A program made the position numbers and the translations under genes. The notes under the pieces were generated by a model. That model ran no database searches. It was given only the letters and a program-made list of their open reading frames with translations, and was not told the origin of the DNA. Shown here in pieces: positions 656 through 62,521 of a DNA stretch of 64,000 bases (within the stretch, counting starts at the first letter, position 1; each line of letters opens with the position of its first letter). Source of the stretch: Komagataeibacter medellinensis NBRC 3288 (GTDB lineage Bacteria; Pseudomonadota; Alphaproteobacteria; Acetobacterales; Acetobacteraceae). The stretch covers positions 2,703,001-2,767,000 of the forward strand of contig NC_016027.1 of NCBI RefSeq assembly GCF_000182745.2. The letters run 5' to 3'.

Positions 656-1516
656 ATGTCCCGTGAGTGGATCAGCGAAGGCCTGTACGAAGGCTGGCGG
701 CAGGAACTGCGTGTGGACCGGATGCTGGCGCGCAGGAAAAGCGCGTTCCAGGATATCGCCGTGTTCGAGAACGTCGATCTTGGCCGTGTGCTGATGCTTG
801 ATGGCGTGGTCCAGATCACGGAACGCGATGAATTCGTCTATCAGGAAATGCTGACCCATGTGCCGCTGCTCGAACATGGCGATGCGAAGCGCGTGCTGGT
901 CATTGGCGCGGGCGATGGCGGCGTGCTGCGCCGCGTGCTGGAACACGGCACCGTTGAAAAGGCGGTGATGGTCGAGATCGACGGCGATGTCATCGAACTG
1001 TCCAAGAAGTTCCTGCCCGCCATTGCAGGTGATGCCTGGACCAACCCGCGCGCCGAAGTGATTGTGGGTGACGGGATCGAGTATGTCACCAACGCGGCTG
1101 ATGGGTCGTTTGACGTGATTATCGTGGACAGCACCGACCCGATCGGGGTTGGCGAAGTGCTGTTTACCGATTCGTTCTACAAGCACTGCGCGCGCATTCT
1201 CACCGCCAACGGCATTATCGTGAACCAGTGCGGCGTGCCATTCATGCAGGCGGATGAACTGCGTGACACCAGCGCGCGGCGTGGGCAGTTCTTTGACCAC
1301 GTATCGGCCTATGTCGCAGCCGTGCCCACCTATGTTGGTGGATTCATGACGCTGGGCGTTGCGGCCAAGGGCAGCGTGCCGGGCCGGCAGACAGTGGATA
1401 TGATCCGTGCACGCGCGGAAAAGGCGGGTATCAAAGGCACGCGGTACTGGACGCCGGAAATGCACGTTGCCTCCTTCACCCTGCCGCCCTACATCGCGCA
1501 GAACCTGCCGCGCTGA
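656..1516 (+). CDS. speE: Spermidine synthase (polyamine aminopropyltransferase)
   Basis: Transfers the aminopropyl group of decarboxylated S-adenosylmethionine to putrescine, forming spermidine. The 286 aa protein has the family length. An N-terminal beta domain (WISEGLYEGWRQELRV) is followed by a Rossmann methyltransferase-like core with GAGDGG at 84-89, the acidic ligand segment VEID at 106-109 and the catalytic DSTDP at 158-162. The start is well placed behind GGAAAGGGG. It is paired with upstream speD, which makes its co-substrate, and is followed by a strong bidirectional terminator. Confidence 0.97.
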   Translation: MSREWISEGLYEGWRQELRVDRMLARRKSAFQDIAVFENVDLGRVLMLDGVVQITERDEFVYQEMLTHVPLLEHGDAKRVLVIGAGDGGVLRRVLEHGTVEKAVMVEIDGDVIELSKKFLPAIAGDAWTNPRAEVIVGDGIEYVTNAADGSFDVIIVDSTDPIGVGEVLFTDSFYKHCARILTANGIIVNQCGVPFMQADELRDTSARRGQFFDHVSAYVAAVPTYVGGFMTLGVAAKGSVPGRQTVDMIRARAEKAGIKGTRYWTPEMHVASFTLPPYIAQNLPR

Positions 1517-1911: not shown

Positions 1912-2042
1912 GGCGGGACTATCCTTGGGTTTATGTTGCGTAGCAGGAACGTATTGCCCGCAGGGCACAGGCCATGCCGTTGTGCCGCGGGGCGCTTTTC
2001 ATGGATTGACTTGGCCCGGTGGGTCATGTCAAGTCGGCAGTG

Positions 2043-2202
2043 TCGATACGGGAGAGACCAGCCCAGCGCTGGCGCCGAAGGAGCAACCGCCCCGGAAACT
2101 CTCAGGCCAAAGGACCGGTCGAACAAGACTTCTGGAAAGAGGTCTCCTGCAAAGGAGACCCGCCGACGGGATAGCGATCTCAGGCACATGCGACAGAAGG
2201 GG
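2043..2202 (+). ncRNA. Tandem glycine riboswitch upstream of gcvT-gcvH-gcvP
   Basis: Two glycine aptamers in tandem. Aptamer 1 (2043-2122) shows GGGAGAGACC, GCGCCGAAGGAGCAA, AACTCTCAGGCCAAAGGAC and a closing P1 (TCGA 2043-2046 with TCGA 2119-2122). Aptamer 2 (2128-2202) begins CTTCTGGAAAGAG, contains GCCGACGGGATAG and ATCTCAGGCAC and closes with CAGAAG at 2194-2199 pairing CTTCTG at 2129-2134. Only five bases separate the aptamers, as in cooperative glycine switches. By analogy, glycine binding would turn on the downstream glycine cleavage genes. A TTGACT hexamer at 2006-2011 is a candidate -35; no convincing -10 was found. Confidence 0.95.
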
Positions 2203-9727: not shown

Positions 9728-9743
9728 ACCGCATTAAAAACAA

Positions 9744-9822
9744 GGAAGTTTTTGGTGAAGCTTTTTTCAAAAAGCTTCGGAGGAACACCGCTTTAAAAAA
9801 AGGAAGCGCCCAAAAGCTTTTG
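9744..9822 (-). repeat. Dispersed palindromic element, copy 1
   Basis: Reads GAAGTTTTTGGTGAAGC, then hairpin GAAGCTTTTTTCAAAAAGCTTC, a short linker, a second hairpin with CGCTT and AAGCG arms around an A/T loop, and ends near CCCAAAAGCTTTTG. It is in the reverse orientation relative to copy 6 and is the only feature between the convergent ABC ATPase and periplasmic-protein genes. Confidence 0.85.
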
Positions 9823-9826
9823 TCAG

Positions 9827-16641: not shown

Positions 16642-16674
16642 TAGCCGGACTGATCCCGCACGACCGGTCAGGCA

Positions 16675-16711
16675 TAAAAAAGGGACCATCCGATAGGATG
16701 GTCCCTTTTTC
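16675..16711. terminator. Intrinsic terminator after ftsY
   Basis: Perfect 11-bp stem AGGGACCATCC (16681-16691) with GGATGGTCCCT (16696-16706), loop GATA, A tract before and T tract after. It can function in both directions and lies between convergent ftsY and pgk. Confidence 0.92.
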
Positions 16712-16740
16712 ATTTCAGTCCGGGACTGTTTGGAAAACCT

Positions 16741-16825
16741 GGAAAAGTTTTTGGTGAAGCTGTTTTCAAAAGCGTTGAAGGGCGCTGCCTTTTTGGAAAA
16801 AAGCAGCGCCCGGAAGTGTTTATGA
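16741..16825 (-). repeat. Dispersed palindromic element, copy 2
   Basis: Begins AAAAGTTTTTGGTGAAGC, has a shortened first hairpin (AAGCTGTTTTCAAAAGCGTT), then a strong second hairpin GGGCGCTGC / GCAGCGCCC around an A/T loop. The terminal repeat is degraded on the right (GGAAGTGTTT). Same orientation as copies 1 and 7. Located between convergent ftsY and pgk, after the ftsY terminator. Confidence 0.8.
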
Positions 16826-16832
16826 TTTGCCT

Positions 16833-23111: not shown

Positions 23112-23137
23112 GCCTGCCTTGCAGGCCCGGCATGGAG

Positions 23138-23175
23138 CACAAAGGCTGGCCGCATCAGGCTTCCAGCCTTTGTCT
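23138..23175 (+). terminator. Hairpin after hemA
   Basis: ACAAAGGCTGG (23139-23149) pairs with CCAGCCTTTGT (23163-23173) around a 13-nt loop, 27 bases after the hemA stop. The T tract is poor immediately after the stem, so termination is likely but not certain. Confidence 0.6.
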
Positions 23176-23240
23176 TCTGCCGGGCTATTTTTCTGGGATG
23201 TTCTGGAAGGCTGTTTGACGCAACCTGCTGATAAAAAGAA

Positions 23241-23288
23241 TAAAAGTTTCCGAGTATCGCCTTTTTTTAAAAAGACACCGTTTTTACG
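23241..23288 (+). repeat. Dispersed palindromic element, copy 3 (degenerate)
   Basis: TAAAAGTTTCCGAGTATCGCC followed by TTTTTTTAAAAAGACACCG matches the left terminal repeat and a decayed first hairpin of copy 6; the second hairpin is missing. Located between convergent hemA and the DsbA-like gene. Confidence 0.6.
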
Positions 23289-23328
23289 ATTTTAGCATGG
23301 GGCTGGGTTGGGCTTTCAGGTGCCGCTG

Positions 23329-24117
23329 TTAGCGGCTTTGTGCGATGGCTTTTTTCAGATCGTCATAGCCAACGGCTCCGGGAATGATCTGACGGGCGTT
23401 GAACACGAAAGTCGGCGTGCCATCCAGTCCGATGGCGCGGGCCAGTTCCATGTTGGCCTGCAGGATGGCAGTGACCTTTGCGCCATTCATGTCCGTGGCC
23501 AAGGTGGTGGCGTTTAGGCCAGACTGGGTGGCAAGCGTGCGCATGCGCTCAACCGTGGGCGAGGCGGAATCGCCCATCACAGCCGCCTGCATGCGGAAAT
23601 AGGCGGCCTGCCCCCCCTGCACGAAAGCCGCCACCAGCGCCTGTGATGTGATCAGGCTGCCCTGACCCAGTACGGGAATGACCTTCTCCACGATACGCAG
23701 GTCCTTGTCCTCACGCGTAAGGCGGTCCAGGTCGGGCAGCACCTTGCGGCAATAGGGGCAGCGCGGGTCATAGAATTCAACCACCGTGGTATGTCCCTGC
23801 GGGTTGCCCAGTATGGCATCGCTGGCGGCGGGGGTGAGCAGGTCGGCGCGGTGGCTTTCCAGCGCGCCGCGAGCCGCATTCTGCTGGGCTGCGTTGGCGT
23901 TGCTGCGCAGGGCGGCAATGGCATCGGACAGGATGGTGGGATCGGTCCTGAGCGCGTTGCGCATGATTGCCACGATTTCCTGCCGCTGGGCGGGGGTAAA
24001 GCTCTCGGCGGGATCGGCGGCGTGGCCAGTGTCGGGCATGGCGACCATGACTGCCCCCATGGCCAGCAGGGCGTGCAGCAGGCGCGGACGGTACCGGCGG
24101 GGAGAAATGAATGTCAC
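23329..24117 (-). CDS. DsbA-family periplasmic thiol:disulfide oxidoreductase
   Basis: 262 aa. Signal peptide (LLHALLAMGAVMVAMPDTGHAA), an N-terminal helical segment (about 40-95) as in DsbG/ScsC/Com1-like proteins, then a thioredoxin fold with the redox motif CPYC at 120-123 (EFYDPRCPYCRKV) and the cis-proline loop GTPTFVFN near the C terminus. The helical N-terminal extension favours an oligomeric isomerase or ScsC-like role over plain DsbA, but this is inference. Divergent from the GGT-like gene. Confidence 0.88.
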   Translation of the reverse strand: MTFISPRRYRPRLLHALLAMGAVMVAMPDTGHAADPAESFTPAQRQEIVAIMRNALRTDPTILSDAIAALRSNANAAQQNAARGALESHRADLLTPAASDAILGNPQGHTTVVEFYDPRCPYCRKVLPDLDRLTREDKDLRIVEKVIPVLGQGSLITSQALVAAFVQGGQAAYFRMQAAVMGDSASPTVERMRTLATQSGLNATTLATDMNGAKVTAILQANMELARAIGLDGTPTFVFNARQIIPGAVGYDDLKKAIAQSR

Positions 24118-30100: not shown

Positions 30101-30115
30101 GATTGGTACGGACAT

Positions 30116-30199
30116 CAAAGGTTTTTCGGGTGTCGCCTTTTTTCAAATAAAGTGACGTTCCCTGAAGCTTTTCGGGAAAAGCTCCACCAAAAACTTCTT
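30116..30199 (+). repeat. Dispersed palindromic element, copy 4
   Basis: Starts CAAAGGTTTTTCGGGTGTCGCC; first hairpin GTCGCC..AAAGTGAC, second hairpin AAGCTTTTC / GAAAAGCTC; ends with the intact right terminal repeat CACCAAAAACTTC. Same orientation as copy 6. Lies between convergent coaA and aldA. A further A/T-loop fragment at about 30220-30240 (GGCGGGCTTTTTGAAAAA) may be a remnant of a second copy. Confidence 0.8.
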
Positions 30200-30328
30200 T
30201 ATGACCGGTCCGGTTCCCAAAGGCGGGCTTTTTGAAAAATGTCCGTGCCGGCCAGATCCATCGGGAATGGGATTGCCATCGGCGCTCTCGCGCGGTGCGT
30301 AGGCGCGGCGCATTGGGCGCAACTAACC

Positions 30329-30366
30329 AGAAAACAAAGGCGGCCCGGATCGCTCCGGGCCGCCAT
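30329..30366 (-). terminator. Intrinsic terminator for the aldehyde dehydrogenase gene
   Basis: Perfect 11-bp GC stem GGCGGCCCGGA (30339-30349) with TCCGGGCCGCC (30354-30364), loop TCGC. On the minus strand the stem is followed by TTTGTTTTC, giving a terminator 24 bases after the stop. Confidence 0.85.
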
Positions 30367-30390
30367 GGTGTGTAACCATGCGTATGTGGT

Positions 30391-38958: not shown

Positions 38959-39022
38959 AAAAGTTTTTGGGTGCCGCCTTTTTTCAGAAAAGTAGTGGCT
39001 TCCGGGCTTTCCGTGACAGTTA
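38959..39022 (+). repeat. Dispersed palindromic element, copy 5 (right end decayed)
   Basis: AAAGTTTTTGGGTGCCGCC and the T/A loop match copy 6 exactly over the left end; the first stem is decayed (AGTAGTGGC) and the second hairpin is reduced to CCGGGCTTTCCG. The right terminal repeat is lost. This is the one copy between tandem rather than convergent genes (MBOAT and rarA). Confidence 0.7.
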
Positions 39023-39187
39023 TTCCTTCAAAACCCAGTCCTGACCCGCAGCATGTTCCCCGTGGTATTGCAGGCGTGTGGCGGTGTTACAGCGTGTATT
39101 GTACCCACAGGACTGGTATTGGGATGTGATATATCCCACCTAGAATGATTGGTCCCACATGGGGCTGCATGGCACAGGCAGGAGCAC

Positions 39188-44075: not shown

Positions 44076-44836
44076 TGAAGGACGGCGTACGCCCCCCCAG
44101 CCCCCAGGTGCCCGCGCGGCGCAGACGCTTCTGGGCGCAGGCATGTATCGCCGCCGTGGCGGAAGGCGGTTTTACCGTGGAGCTCGATGGCCGTGGCATT
44201 CGTCTGCCTGGCGGTGCGGCACTTGTGGTGCAATCTGAAGCGCTGGCCAGTGCGATTGCAGGGGAATGGGCAGCGGCGGGTGGAGAAAAGGGCGGGCATT
44301 TCACCCCCGATGACCTGCCCATGACCCGTATTGCCGGTACCATGATCGAGCGCGTGGCCCCGGACCCGATGGCACAGGTGGCGGCCCTTTTGCAGTATGT
44401 GGATGGGGAACTGCTGTGCTACCGCGCCGACTATCCCGCTCAACTCTGTGCGCGCCAGCATGAACTGTGGGACCCGCAATTAGCATGGCTGCGCGCGCGC
44501 CATGGTATCGACATGACGGTCACGACGGGCATCATGCCGCTTGTGCAAGCGGAAGGGGTGCATGCGGCATGGCGTACCCTTGTCGCCGCGCAGGATAACG
44601 CAACCCTCGCGGCACTGGGTGTTATGGTGCCCGCGATGAAAAGCATCGTGTTGGGGCTTGCGGTGGTGACCGGCGCGCTATCGGCTGCAAAGGCTGCCGA
44701 TATTGCCACGGTGGATGAACGCACCCAGATGGATATATGGGGCCATGATGCCAAGCAGGTTGAACTGCTGGCGGCGCTAGCGGCGGAAGTGGCGGATGCC
44801 GATCGTTTCGTGCAGCTGTGCCATGAGGCAAAATGA
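44072..44836 (+). CDS. ATP12-family F1-ATPase assembly chaperone
   Basis: 254 aa. The mitochondrial and alphaproteobacterial ATP12 family helps fold or assemble the F1 alpha subunit. Typical segments are RRRRFWAQACIAAVAEGGFTVELDGR, AIAGEWAAAG, MTRIAGTMIERV, LLQYVDGELLCYRADYPAQLCARQHELWDPQLAWLRARHG and KSIVLGLAVVTGALSAAKAA. ATG 44072 overlaps the asmA-like stop (ATGA). End of the rarA-rluC-asmA-ATP12 unit; a full repeat copy follows. Confidence 0.92.
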   Translation: MMKDGVRPPSPQVPARRRRFWAQACIAAVAEGGFTVELDGRGIRLPGGAALVVQSEALASAIAGEWAAAGGEKGGHFTPDDLPMTRIAGTMIERVAPDPMAQVAALLQYVDGELLCYRADYPAQLCARQHELWDPQLAWLRARHGIDMTVTTGIMPLVQAEGVHAAWRTLVAAQDNATLAALGVMVPAMKSIVLGLAVVTGALSAAKAADIATVDERTQMDIWGHDAKQVELLAALAAEVADADRFVQLCHEAK

Positions 44837-44847
44837 TGAACTGAACA

Positions 44848-44926
44848 GAAGTTTTTGGGTGCCGCCTTTTTTCAAAAAGGCGGCGTTCCTTAAAGCTTTT
44901 TGGGAAAAAGCTTCACCAAAAACTTC
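44848..44926 (+). repeat. Dispersed palindromic element, copy 6 (best-preserved reference copy)
   Basis: 79 bp. Terminal inverted repeats GAAGTTTTTGGGTG and CACCAAAAACTTC. First hairpin GCCGCCTTTTT / AAAAAGGCGGC, linker GTTCCTT, second hairpin AAAGCTTTTT / AAAAAGCTTC. No coding capacity. Between convergent ATP12 and ispDF, directly before a separate intrinsic terminator. The other seven copies are defined by comparison with it. Confidence 0.92.
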
Positions 44927-44942
44927 TTTCAGTCTTCTGAAT

Positions 44943-44980
44943 ACAAAAACGGCCCGGTATCACACCGGGCCGTTTTTTGT
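44943..44980. terminator. Bidirectional intrinsic terminator between ATP12 and ispDF
   Basis: ACAAAAACGGCCCGGT pairs with ACCGGGCCGTTTTTTGT; T tracts follow the GC stem on both strands. It can end the ATP12 operon (+) and ispDF (-). Confidence 0.92.
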
Positions 44981-44993
44981 GGCGATGCGCCAA

Positions 44994-46184
44994 TCAGGGC
45001 ACCAGAACCGTAGCACTTGCCAGACAGGCTATGCCTTCCTCGCGCCCGGTAAAGCCAAGGCGTTCTGACGTGGTGGCCTTGACCGAGATGCGGTCCACAT
45101 CAACCTTCAGCAGTTCGGCTAGGCGCACGCGCATGGCTTCCGAATGCGGGCCGATCTTGGGGCGTTCACAGATCAGCGTCACATCGGCATTGACCAGCAT
45201 GCCGCCGCGCTGACGAATGCGCTCGCCCGCATGGACCAGGAAGCGCGCGCTGTCAGCATCCTTCCACTCGTTCTGGCTGGGTGGGAAGTGACGGCCAATG
45301 TCGCCTTCCGCCAGTGCACCGTAAATGGCGTCGCATAGCGCATGGATGCCCACATCCGCATCCGAGTGGCCGGCAAGGCCGCGCGTGTGGGGCACATTGA
45401 TGCCGCACATGATCAGGGGCCGGTTCTCGGCAAAGGCATGCACGTCATAGCCCGTGCCGGTGCGCGGCAGCAGGGTCGGGCCGATCAGGCGTTCGAGGCG
45501 CACCAGATCCTCCTTGTAGGTCAGTTTGATGTTGTCTTCCGAACCGGGAACGATGGCAACGTGGTGGCCGGCCTGCTCCAGCAGGGCGGCGTCATCGGTG
45601 GCGTCGGCGGCGGTGGCCCCGCGGTGCAGGTCGCGCAGCAGAGCAAAGCGGAAGCCTTGCGGCGTCTGGGCGCGGAACAGGTCGGTGCGGGGCACGGTAT
45701 TGGTAATGATGCCATCTTTGGCACGCTTGATGGTATCGGCCACCGGCACGGCGGGGATCACGCCCGCGTGCTGTTCCAGTGCCGCGATCACGCCCTGTGT
45801 CACGCTGCCGGGCACGTAGGGGCGCGCGCCGTCATGGATCAGTACCAGTTCGGGCCGCGCGCTTTCGGGCAGGCGGTCAAGGGCGTCCAGCCCGGCGCGC
45901 ACGCTGGCCTGGCGCGTATCGCCACCGGGCACGACCGGCAGGACCGTGCAGCCAGATGGCGTGAAGCCTTCCAGCGCACTGCCCAGCAGGACGGGGTCGC
46001 CCACCGGCTGGATGATGCCCACATGGGGGGCAAGGGCATCCGCCGCATGGCGGATGACGGGCCGTCCGCCCAGCGTGACATACTGCTTGGCGACGGAGGT
46101 CGCGGTCTGGGCGCTGTACCGGCTGCCCTGGCCCGCGGCGAGAAGAATGGCTGCAACACGCATGATGCGGAGCAATGCGGCCAT
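44994..46184 (-). CDS. ispDF: Bifunctional IspD/IspF (MEP isoprenoid pathway)
   Basis: 396 aa fusion of two steps of the MEP pathway. The N-terminal IspD half has [14 protein letters not shown], the KQY motif and [12 protein letters not shown], and makes CDP-methylerythritol. The C-terminal IspF half has [42 protein letters not shown] and [17 protein letters not shown], and makes the cyclodiphosphate. The fusion is common in alphaproteobacteria. ATG 46163 ([11 protein letters not shown]) begins at the usual family start and may be the true one; 46184 adds seven residues. Divergent from dusB. Confidence 0.96.
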
Positions 46185-56437: not shown

Positions 56438-56444
56438 AAACAGA

Positions 56445-56525
56445 AAGCAGTTTTTGGCGAAGCTTTTTTTTAAAAGCTTCGAAGAATTCTGCCTTTTTGA
56501 AAAAAGGCAGCACCCAAAAACTTCT
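56445..56525 (-). repeat. Dispersed palindromic element, copy 7
   Basis: AAGCAGTTTTTGGCGAAGC, first hairpin GAAGCTTTT / AAAAGCTTC, linker GAAGAATT, second hairpin CTGCCTTTTT / AAAAAGGCAG, right end CACCCAAAAACTTC. The stem CTGCC/GGCAG replaces CGCC/GGCG of other copies with pairing preserved. Same orientation as copies 1 and 2; between convergent phosphatase and mazG genes. Confidence 0.88.
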
Positions 56526-56555
56526 ATTCAATAAATTACAAGGTTACTGCAGGAA

Positions 56556-58453: not shown

Positions 58454-58537
58454 GCGAGAGTGACGGAACGGTAGACGTAGTCGACTCAAAATCGACCGCC
58501 GCAAGGCATGGGGGTTCGAATCCCCCCTCTCGTACCA
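58454..58537 (+). tRNA. tRNA-Leu (anticodon CAA)
   Basis: 84 nt including an encoded CCA. Acceptor GCGAGAG (58454-58460) pairs with CTCTCGT (58527-58533), with a G-U first pair. The D stem is ACG/CGT. Anticodon stem GTCGA/TCGAC encloses CTCAAAA, giving anticodon CAA. A type II long variable arm (CGCCGCAAGGCAT) and T arm GGGGG-TTCGAAT-CCCCC follow. The long variable arm and A73 fit leucine. Confidence 0.95.
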
Positions 58538-62390: not shown

Positions 62391-62401
62391 TCAAAACGGG
62401 A

Positions 62402-62455
62402 CAGATGTTTCTGTGTGCCGCTTTTTTTGAAATGCGGCATTTCCTGAATGTCTTT
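62402..62455 (+). repeat. Dispersed palindromic element, copy 8 (degenerate)
   Basis: AGATGTTTCTGTGTGCCGC, then a T/A loop and ATGCGGCATT keep the first hairpin (TGCCGC/GCGGCA); the second hairpin and right terminal repeat have decayed into TCCTGAATGTC. Located between convergent purA and rpoH, next to an intrinsic terminator. Confidence 0.65.
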
Positions 62456-62497
62456 AAAAAAAGCCCCACAGGCCATTGGCCTGCGGGGCTTTTTTAA
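62455..62497. terminator. Bidirectional intrinsic terminator between purA and rpoH
   Basis: AAAAAAGCCCCACAGGCC pairs with GGCCTGCGGGGCTTTTTT apart from one internal mismatch; the loop is ATT. T tracts follow on both strands, so it serves purA (+) and rpoH (-). Confidence 0.92.
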
Positions 62498-62521
62498 TAA
62501 TAGGGCGGGGAAAGTGTGGGG

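Follow-up and report, generated by a model that had tools for sequence, protein, structure and literature searches.

The Locus and Its Repeats

The window analyzed here is a stretch of 64,000 nt (64 kb) from the chromosome of Komagataeibacter medellinensis NBRC 3288. Within it, an ATP12 chaperone gene (stop at 44836) and ispDF (stop side at 44994) converge on a gap that holds two structured features. One is an intrinsic terminator of usual form. The other, distinct from it, is copy 6 of a repeated element. The full form of the element is about 80 bp long and consists of an outer stem around two hairpins. The outer stem pairs GAAGTTTTTGG(G)TG with CACCAAAAACTTC. The lower stem is CCGCC/GGCGG in one hairpin and AAGC/GCTT in the other, and the upper stem of both is a T-run/A-run. 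We refer to this structure as the core.

A first-pass annotation made from the letters alone had named eight such places, ranging from intact to half-decayed, with copies 1, 2 and 7 reversed. The element is present at all eight, five in full and three in part, with the orientations as described; that it is short, dispersed in many copies and without coding capacity is likewise borne out. Copies 3, 5 and 8 (at 23241, 38959 and 62402) retain about half of the element, chiefly hairpin 1 and the end on the GGGTG side. The covariance model, R1, was trained on the five full window copies only (1, 2, 4, 6 and 7), and so their scores in Table 1 are matches by construction. Of the half copies, which were not in the training set, the one at 38962 reaches 22 bits, that at 62403 21 bits and that at 23233-23331 11 bits, the last not significant by itself.

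Table 1. Positions of the repeat copies, their parts and other features. Positions are those of the window unless a locus (L number) is named.
Feature	Position	Strand	Remarks
Glycine riboswitch aptamer	2039..2126	+	RF00504, 62 bits
Copy 1, full	9743..9821	-	77.2 bits; fold z -1.9; convergent gap 9728-9826 (ABC ATPase gene / ORF without Pfam match)
Copy 2, full	16742..16821	-	70.3 bits; fold z -5.6; convergent gap 16642-16832 (ftsY-like / phosphoglycerate kinase)
Copy 3, decayed half	23233..23331	+	10-11 bits, both strands; repeat family D1; convergent gap 23112-23328
Copy 4, full, pairing weakened	30118..30199	+	80.5 bits; fold z -0.8; convergent gap 30101-30390
Copy 5, half	38962..39040	+	21.9 bits; 25 nt past MBOAT gene; tandem gap
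Copy 6, full	44847..44928	+	102.3 bits; fold z -5.6/-6.6 (two strands); convergent gap
Copy 6, outer stem left arm GAAGTTTTTGGGTG (B end)	44848..44861	+	sequence, fold
Copy 6, hairpin 1, CCGCC-TTTTTTCAAAAA-GGCGG	44862..44883	+	fold; lower stem covaries family-wide (helix 3)
Copy 6, hairpin 2, AAGCTTTTTGGGAAAAAGCTT	44893..44913	+	fold; covariation (helix 4)
Copy 6, outer stem right arm CACCAAAAACTTC (A end)	44914..44926	+	sequence, fold
Intrinsic terminator beside copy 6: A-tract, CGGCCCGGT-ATCAC-ACCGGGCCG, T-tract	44945..44978		distinct from element
Copy 7, full	56445..56525	-	100 bits; fold z -4.8; convergent gap 56438-56555 (inositol phosphatase family gene / mazG)
tRNA	58454..58534
Copy 8, half	62403..62466	+	20.7 bits; convergent gap 62391-62521 (purA / sigma factor)
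Three-hairpin elements of G202	L202 4526-4656; L204 18283-18411; L205 7686-7816		~130 bp
IS5-type ISs (~821 bp) within core hairpin 2	L207 ~1456-1512; L212 ~1456-1495		GG(G/C)CTGTTGGGAATT-type ends
Transposon with IS5-family transposase	L248 536-3239		2.7 kb; other ORFs also between GTGACTGTTTGAAAA ends
Transposon with IS5-family transposase	L249 503-4129		3.6 kb; other ORFs also between GTGACTGTTTGAAAA ends
IS256-like transposase gene (by eye) beside GAGACTGTTTCAAAA end	L083 1501-2592		end resembles MITE ends
5-kb unit, GAGACTGTTTCAAAA ends, TAA flanks	L250 423-5479		ends resemble MITE ends
Shortened MITE variant, 134 bp	L097 1501-1634		both ends, single hairpin

Copy Number and Distribution

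At E ≤ 1, R1 finds 144 matches in this genome, every one on the 3.14-Mb chromosome contig; they come from the best 150 of 753 candidates, with at least one element counted on both strands. The annotation's extrapolation to hundreds of copies is right as to many and slightly high for this genome. The element occurs in all 19 Komagataeibacter genomes searched, at 43 to at least 150 copies each, and 10 of the 19 have at least 150. The window is denser in copies than the genome average (7 at 20 bits or more in its 64 kb, versus 40 in 800 kb outside). In an 864-kb sample of the genome, a profile built from 49 of its copies picks up 56 loci (E ≤ 0.01), the training copies among them matching by construction. 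The same profile finds none in the reversed sequence and one when the intergenic gaps are shuffled, so the proposed comparison with shuffled sequence comes out in the family's favor.

The search proposed for other Acetobacteraceae also gave matches. Among 200 sampled genomes of the family, from 102 genera, R1 detects the element at E ≤ 1e-6 in 28 genomes of 15 genera, and model R2 in 30 genomes of 17 genera. When 385 Alphaproteobacteria genomes were searched, taking the best 12 candidates per genome, the one match was the window's own genome; that draw included at least four other Acetobacteraceae, all without a match. We reject a phage or plasmid origin, since the copy 6 query matches none of 50,697 phage records and 5 of 72,556 plasmid records. 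A known RNA family is also rejected. No known Rfam RNA family accounts for the element at the gathering score in the whole window, and in a low-threshold scan of 44700-45050 the best score was 39 bits where 97 are required. None of the titles and abstract openings listed in the literature search describes this repeat family. For Lichenicola cladoniae, RepRanger gives a count of 1,369 REPs, which section 11 of the article does not describe (PMC12306157). That species belongs to the Acetobacteraceae, and its REP count may or may not take in this family.

Structure of the Family

Base pairs covary across the family. An alignment fitted to the model, with each element entered on both strands, has pairing in 97% of its cells and contains 312 double-changed cells versus 91 in shuffles. 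The T/A runs of the outer stem and of the hairpin tops are nearly constant, and it is the lower stems that vary. Distant forms keep a AAAAGTTTTTTG-like outer stem and the T/A hairpin tops, with lower stems that change in pairs. In the genome of a distant genus (G202), some elements are about 130 bp long and have a third, G+C-rich hairpin in the middle, forming by eye a four-way junction. Another genome (G038) has two identical cores in different flanks.

Placement at Gene 3' Ends

Placement was scored in the window and in 40 systematically sampled 20-kb stretches, which together span 864 kb, with genes called by our own Viterbi caller rather than taken from curated annotation. With one stretch-edge copy and three matches below 20 bits left out, 46 gap copies (20 bits or more) remain, of which 34 are convergent, 11 tandem and 1 divergent. 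The 34 occupy 33 gaps, one gap (L071) having two. Convergent gaps make up 111 of the 688 gaps in the sample and 19% of the intergenic bases (binomial p 6e-16 for 34 of 46 copies), and 11 of the 15 convergent gaps of 100-150 nt hold a copy. Copies also lie close to stop codons. Ten of the 11 tandem copies are within 34 nt of the stop of the upstream gene, and in gaps of at least 160 nt, 20 of 26 copies are within 35 nt of a stop, where 9.2 would be expected if they were placed uniformly. Within the window, copy 5 alone is tandem, and the other seven are convergent. Calling the copies intergenic was therefore right, although it missed both the closeness to stop codons and the preference for convergent gaps.

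The pattern extends to the distant genus. Thirteen matches in eight 20-kb stretches of G202 divide into 7 convergent, 4 tandem and 2 unplaced. An element is present in 7 of the 13 convergent gaps of at least 60 nt, and 6 of these 7 elements come to between -3 and +6 nt from one or both stops; several of the gaps are almost filled, stop to stop. Matches in two other genomes are too few to judge (G038, both of 2 tandem; G073, 1 convergent, 1 divergent and 3 unplaced of 5).

The 12 nt outward from the two ends of the core have a T content of 5.7 and 5.3, versus 2.3 and 2.7 further out. However, our own scan calls few canonical terminators, at 1 of the 54 B ends and 13 of the 54 A ends; a G+C-rich hairpin directly before a T-run is absent at the other 53 and 41. 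Because of these low counts, most cores are not ordinary intrinsic terminators. A consensus terminator scan listed none at the cores, and it also missed the terminator beside copy 6. A separate canonical terminator is found in 9 of 35 element-bearing convergent gaps. For convergent gaps of 60-300 nt, the figures are 6 of 29 with a core versus 13 of 30 without (p 0.09), the gap of copy 3 being counted as without an element at its score below 15 bits.

A 160-bp MITE That Carries the Core

Several copies are nested in a unit of about 160 bp with ends GAG[A/G]CTGTTTGAAAA. Among the 13 distinct full units in the loci covered, 11 have identical TNA flanks, and 4 exactly abut a called stop codon, with reading frames running open into it. 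Read by eye, 16 of the 19 pairs counted among the matches listed have identical flanks. One unit (contig C3, 814964-815123) is inserted within another core. When the flanks of this unit are joined, the interrupted core is whole again and scores 57.8 bits, versus 31.7 and 13.0 for its two parts separately. Transposons in two relatives (L248 and L249) have ends GTGACTGTTTGAAAA that differ from the MITE's GAGACTGTTTGAAAA at 1 of 15 bases. They too have identical TNA flanks, and they encode a 268-aa IS5-family transposase (NF033580, 230 and 225 bits against a cut-off of 110). An IS5-type MITE is the best reading of the 160-bp unit, and the dispersal of this form is well supported. On this form the annotation's suggestion of a MITE, and its advice to look for target-site duplications and a parental transposase, proved sound, with the limit that no intact partner with ends exactly matching the MITE was found. 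The IS at L080 was first considered a parent owing to a GAGACTGTTTGAAAA end. It was rejected because relatives show GG(G/C)CTGTTGGGAATT-type ends for the IS itself, with the other end falling outside.

Since TAA and TGA are TNA triplets, stop codons are natural targets for such a MITE, and since the duplicated TNA is the stop codon itself, the gene stays whole. Traces of arms persist at some sites. At the 6857 and 55472 gaps, insertions confined to particular clades can be aligned with the MITE across decayed arms. Copy 2 has possible arm remnants in its flanks, GACTGTTTGGAAAA on the left and ATGATTTG on the right, with arm scores of 9 and 10 versus a best of 9 in 30 shuffles for each. Several other mobile units are entered in Table 1. 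In two cases (L207 and L212) an IS sits within hairpin 2 as if the core loop were an IS landing site.

Bare Cores

Most cores lack the arms. Around 29 near-consensus cores, near-exact patterns within 80 nt find both MITE ends in 3, one end in 1 and neither in 25 (21 of the 29 were scored by a placeholder, their true scores being at least 82.5 bits). A softer test on 68 cores puts both arms above all shuffles in 8, the left arm in 11 and the right arm in 19. Either arms have been lost while cores were kept, or bare cores have spread alone. The GAAGTTTTTGG repeat, which the annotation took for a terminal inverted repeat, forms the outer stem of the core and is not evidenced as a transposon end. 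Neither a duplication nor a clean empty site was found for the bare core at the sites compared, which are too diverged to show one plainly; the support for the MITE label lies with the longer form. The two forms also differ in placement. The full MITEs, 10 of the 13 being classifiable, are 3 convergent and 7 tandem, versus 34 of 46 convergent for the cores (p 0.02). On these few units, the lower convergence of the MITEs favors selective retention of cores.

The REP/RAYT system is rejected, as no Y1_Tnp/RAYT gene is found in 14 element-bearing genomes; the control search was positive in 5 of 14 known genomes, including E. coli and Caulobacter vibrioides. At five places where cores lie close together, no transposase is seen by eye among the genes between them. 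These genes are housekeeping-like: trmB-, accD-, folC-, htpG- and lipA-like.

Orthologous Sites in Relatives

In the ATP12-ispDF gap, the model detects the element in 13 of 17 named relatives, and remnants are visible by eye in K. oboediens and K. diospyri. In K. saccharivorans and K. melaceti, a terminator like that at 44945..44978 stands alone in the gap, without the element. In K. rhaeticus, the short flanks are unchanged (ACTGAACA on the left and TTTCAGTCT on the right) and enclose the element in inverted orientation. At the copy 7 site, seven relatives have the element in the same orientation (2), inverted (3) or absent (2); the two empty gaps at 56438, in G012 and G090, are 23 and 16 nt long. 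Four relatives hold better-kept copies in the gap of copy 8. Thus, presence or absence differs between species at orthologous gaps, and a comparison of the orthologous regions of seven relatives shows opposite orientations at three gaps, in 18 genome pairs.

In 27 of 34 genome pairs, similarity is higher in the core than elsewhere in the gap, with means of 0.69 versus 0.46; these pairs are not independent, and 3 pairs with less than 20 nt outside the core were dropped. Between subclades, orthologous cores are 0.785 alike (7 pairs) versus 0.781 for unrelated cores (219 pairs), and the average for flipped core pairs is 0.83. In the xylinus group, similarity is 0.88-0.93 at the 6857 and 56438 sites and 0.76-0.80 at the 55472 and 23112 sites. 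These site-level similarities fit repeated insertion, homogenization and constrained evolution alike.

What the Core May Do

We tentatively take the core to be the structured part of a dispersed family that has been spread, at least in Komagataeibacter, inside the ~160-bp IS5-family MITE and kept as a 3' boundary, and we hold this whole reading at a little below even confidence. For its functional part, we infer with moderate confidence that the core acts as a boundary. A structural 3' boundary is preferred over an ordinary terminator because there are T-rich tracts at both ends but few canonical calls. In outline, MITEs (or cores) would scatter into TNA sites, stop codons among them. Insertions elsewhere than at gene 3' ends would presumably be lost, and MITE arms would decay while the core persists. 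Structured cores would then persist at gene 3' ends, flipping between species. The quasi-symmetric core would be kept because, either way round, it could bound both convergent mRNAs at their 3' ends. Its stem-loop could block trimming enzymes or read-through polymerase, aided by the outward T-rich tracts on both sides. Against long retention, orthologs between subclades are no more alike than unrelated cores, which allows repeated re-insertion. Additionally, 25 armless cores among 29 near-consensus ones are not easily explained by arm decay alone. The relatives that do without the element at the ATP12 and 56438 gaps also count against the reading, as do the few matches in G038 and G073, which are not mainly convergent, and the separate terminator that core-bearing convergent gaps lack only somewhat more often than the others.

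A broader form of this reading is possible, if rather doubtful. The MITE may use the stop codon as a safe harbour, in that the TNA duplication re-creates the stop and the element adds a symmetric 3' boundary that works in either orientation. Within a single bacterial family, a large share of convergent pairs would repeatedly have been fitted in this way with one and the same two-way end module. If the core is a two-way 3' boundary, a mobile element would be wiring gene ends genome-wide, helped by its choice of stop codons as targets. About 140 natural test sites in one genome would then be at hand for the insulation of convergent genes, with flipped, empty and half-decayed versions in relatives. 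Acetic acid bacteria might also gain two-way terminator or stabilizer parts.

The main rival, which we rate as unlikely on balance while giving it real weight, is a purely selfish MITE, whose placement comes from the choice of TNA targets plus loss from genes, operons and promoters. Repair or rewriting of hairpins by template switching would make the core look conserved, and it would explain the flips and the paired changes. Stop codons of the forms TAA and TGA, and their complements, are TNA, and the identical flanks (11 of 13) and exact stop-codon insertions (4 of 13) follow the same rule. The differences in presence between species, the flips of orientation and the equal likeness of orthologs and paralogs between subclades are also as a selfish element would leave them. 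It accounts less well for near-consensus cores that mostly have neither end, for full MITEs that are less convergent than cores, and for convergent gaps filled nearly stop to stop in a distant genus by differently built elements.

An improbable alternative is that the bare core is itself mobile, through an enzyme that reads the outer stem or hairpins, with the 160-bp MITE as a side form that picked it up. Armless near-consensus cores do exist, relatives occur in 17 of 102 genera, most of the examples viewed appearing by eye to lack IS5-type ends in their flanks (L128 may have some), and G038 has its two identical cores in different flanks. However, Y1/RAYT transposases are absent from all 14 genomes, no bare-core duplication or clean empty site was found, and the five places between close cores show only housekeeping-like genes. 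We give very little credence to binding of the core as double-stranded DNA by a protein (gyrase or a nucleoid protein) that relieves supercoils between convergent genes, with RNA structure incidental: the convergent preference and the near-constant T/A runs over varying lower stems would suit it, but the cores lie close to stops rather than in mid-gap, their stems covary in a way that points to folding, and the hairpin number varies (2 or 3) in G202.

Comparison with Known Systems

ERIC, Correia (CREE/nemis) and RUP elements are palindromic intergenic repeats of about 100 bp, some of them mobile and transcribed. They are set apart by description, having other ends and hosts and TA duplications, and we know of no strong confinement of these families to convergent gaps. 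REP/BIME elements, which adjoin gene 3' ends in E. coli, are likewise palindromic and extragenic. The first-pass annotation had offered a REP-type family as the other possibility, and this did not stand. The elements here are three- and four-way structures of 80-130 bp, the Y1 transposase is missing from all 14 genomes, and by eye no GTAG/CGTC tag lies beside a 20-40 bp palindrome in the copies and consensus. CGTC REPs are given as absent from Acetobacteraceae in PMC3733652.

The core resembles bidirectional intrinsic terminators in its site between convergent genes, its symmetry and its outward T-rich tracts on both sides. It is unlike them in that the outer stem is A/T-rich and branched, and in the few canonical calls (1 and 13 of 54 ends). 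The 160-bp form resembles IS5-family MITEs in being non-coding, in its 15-bp ends like those of L248 and L249, and in its TNA duplications. What sets the family apart from such MITEs is the 80-bp double hairpin, mostly armless and concentrated at gene 3' ends.
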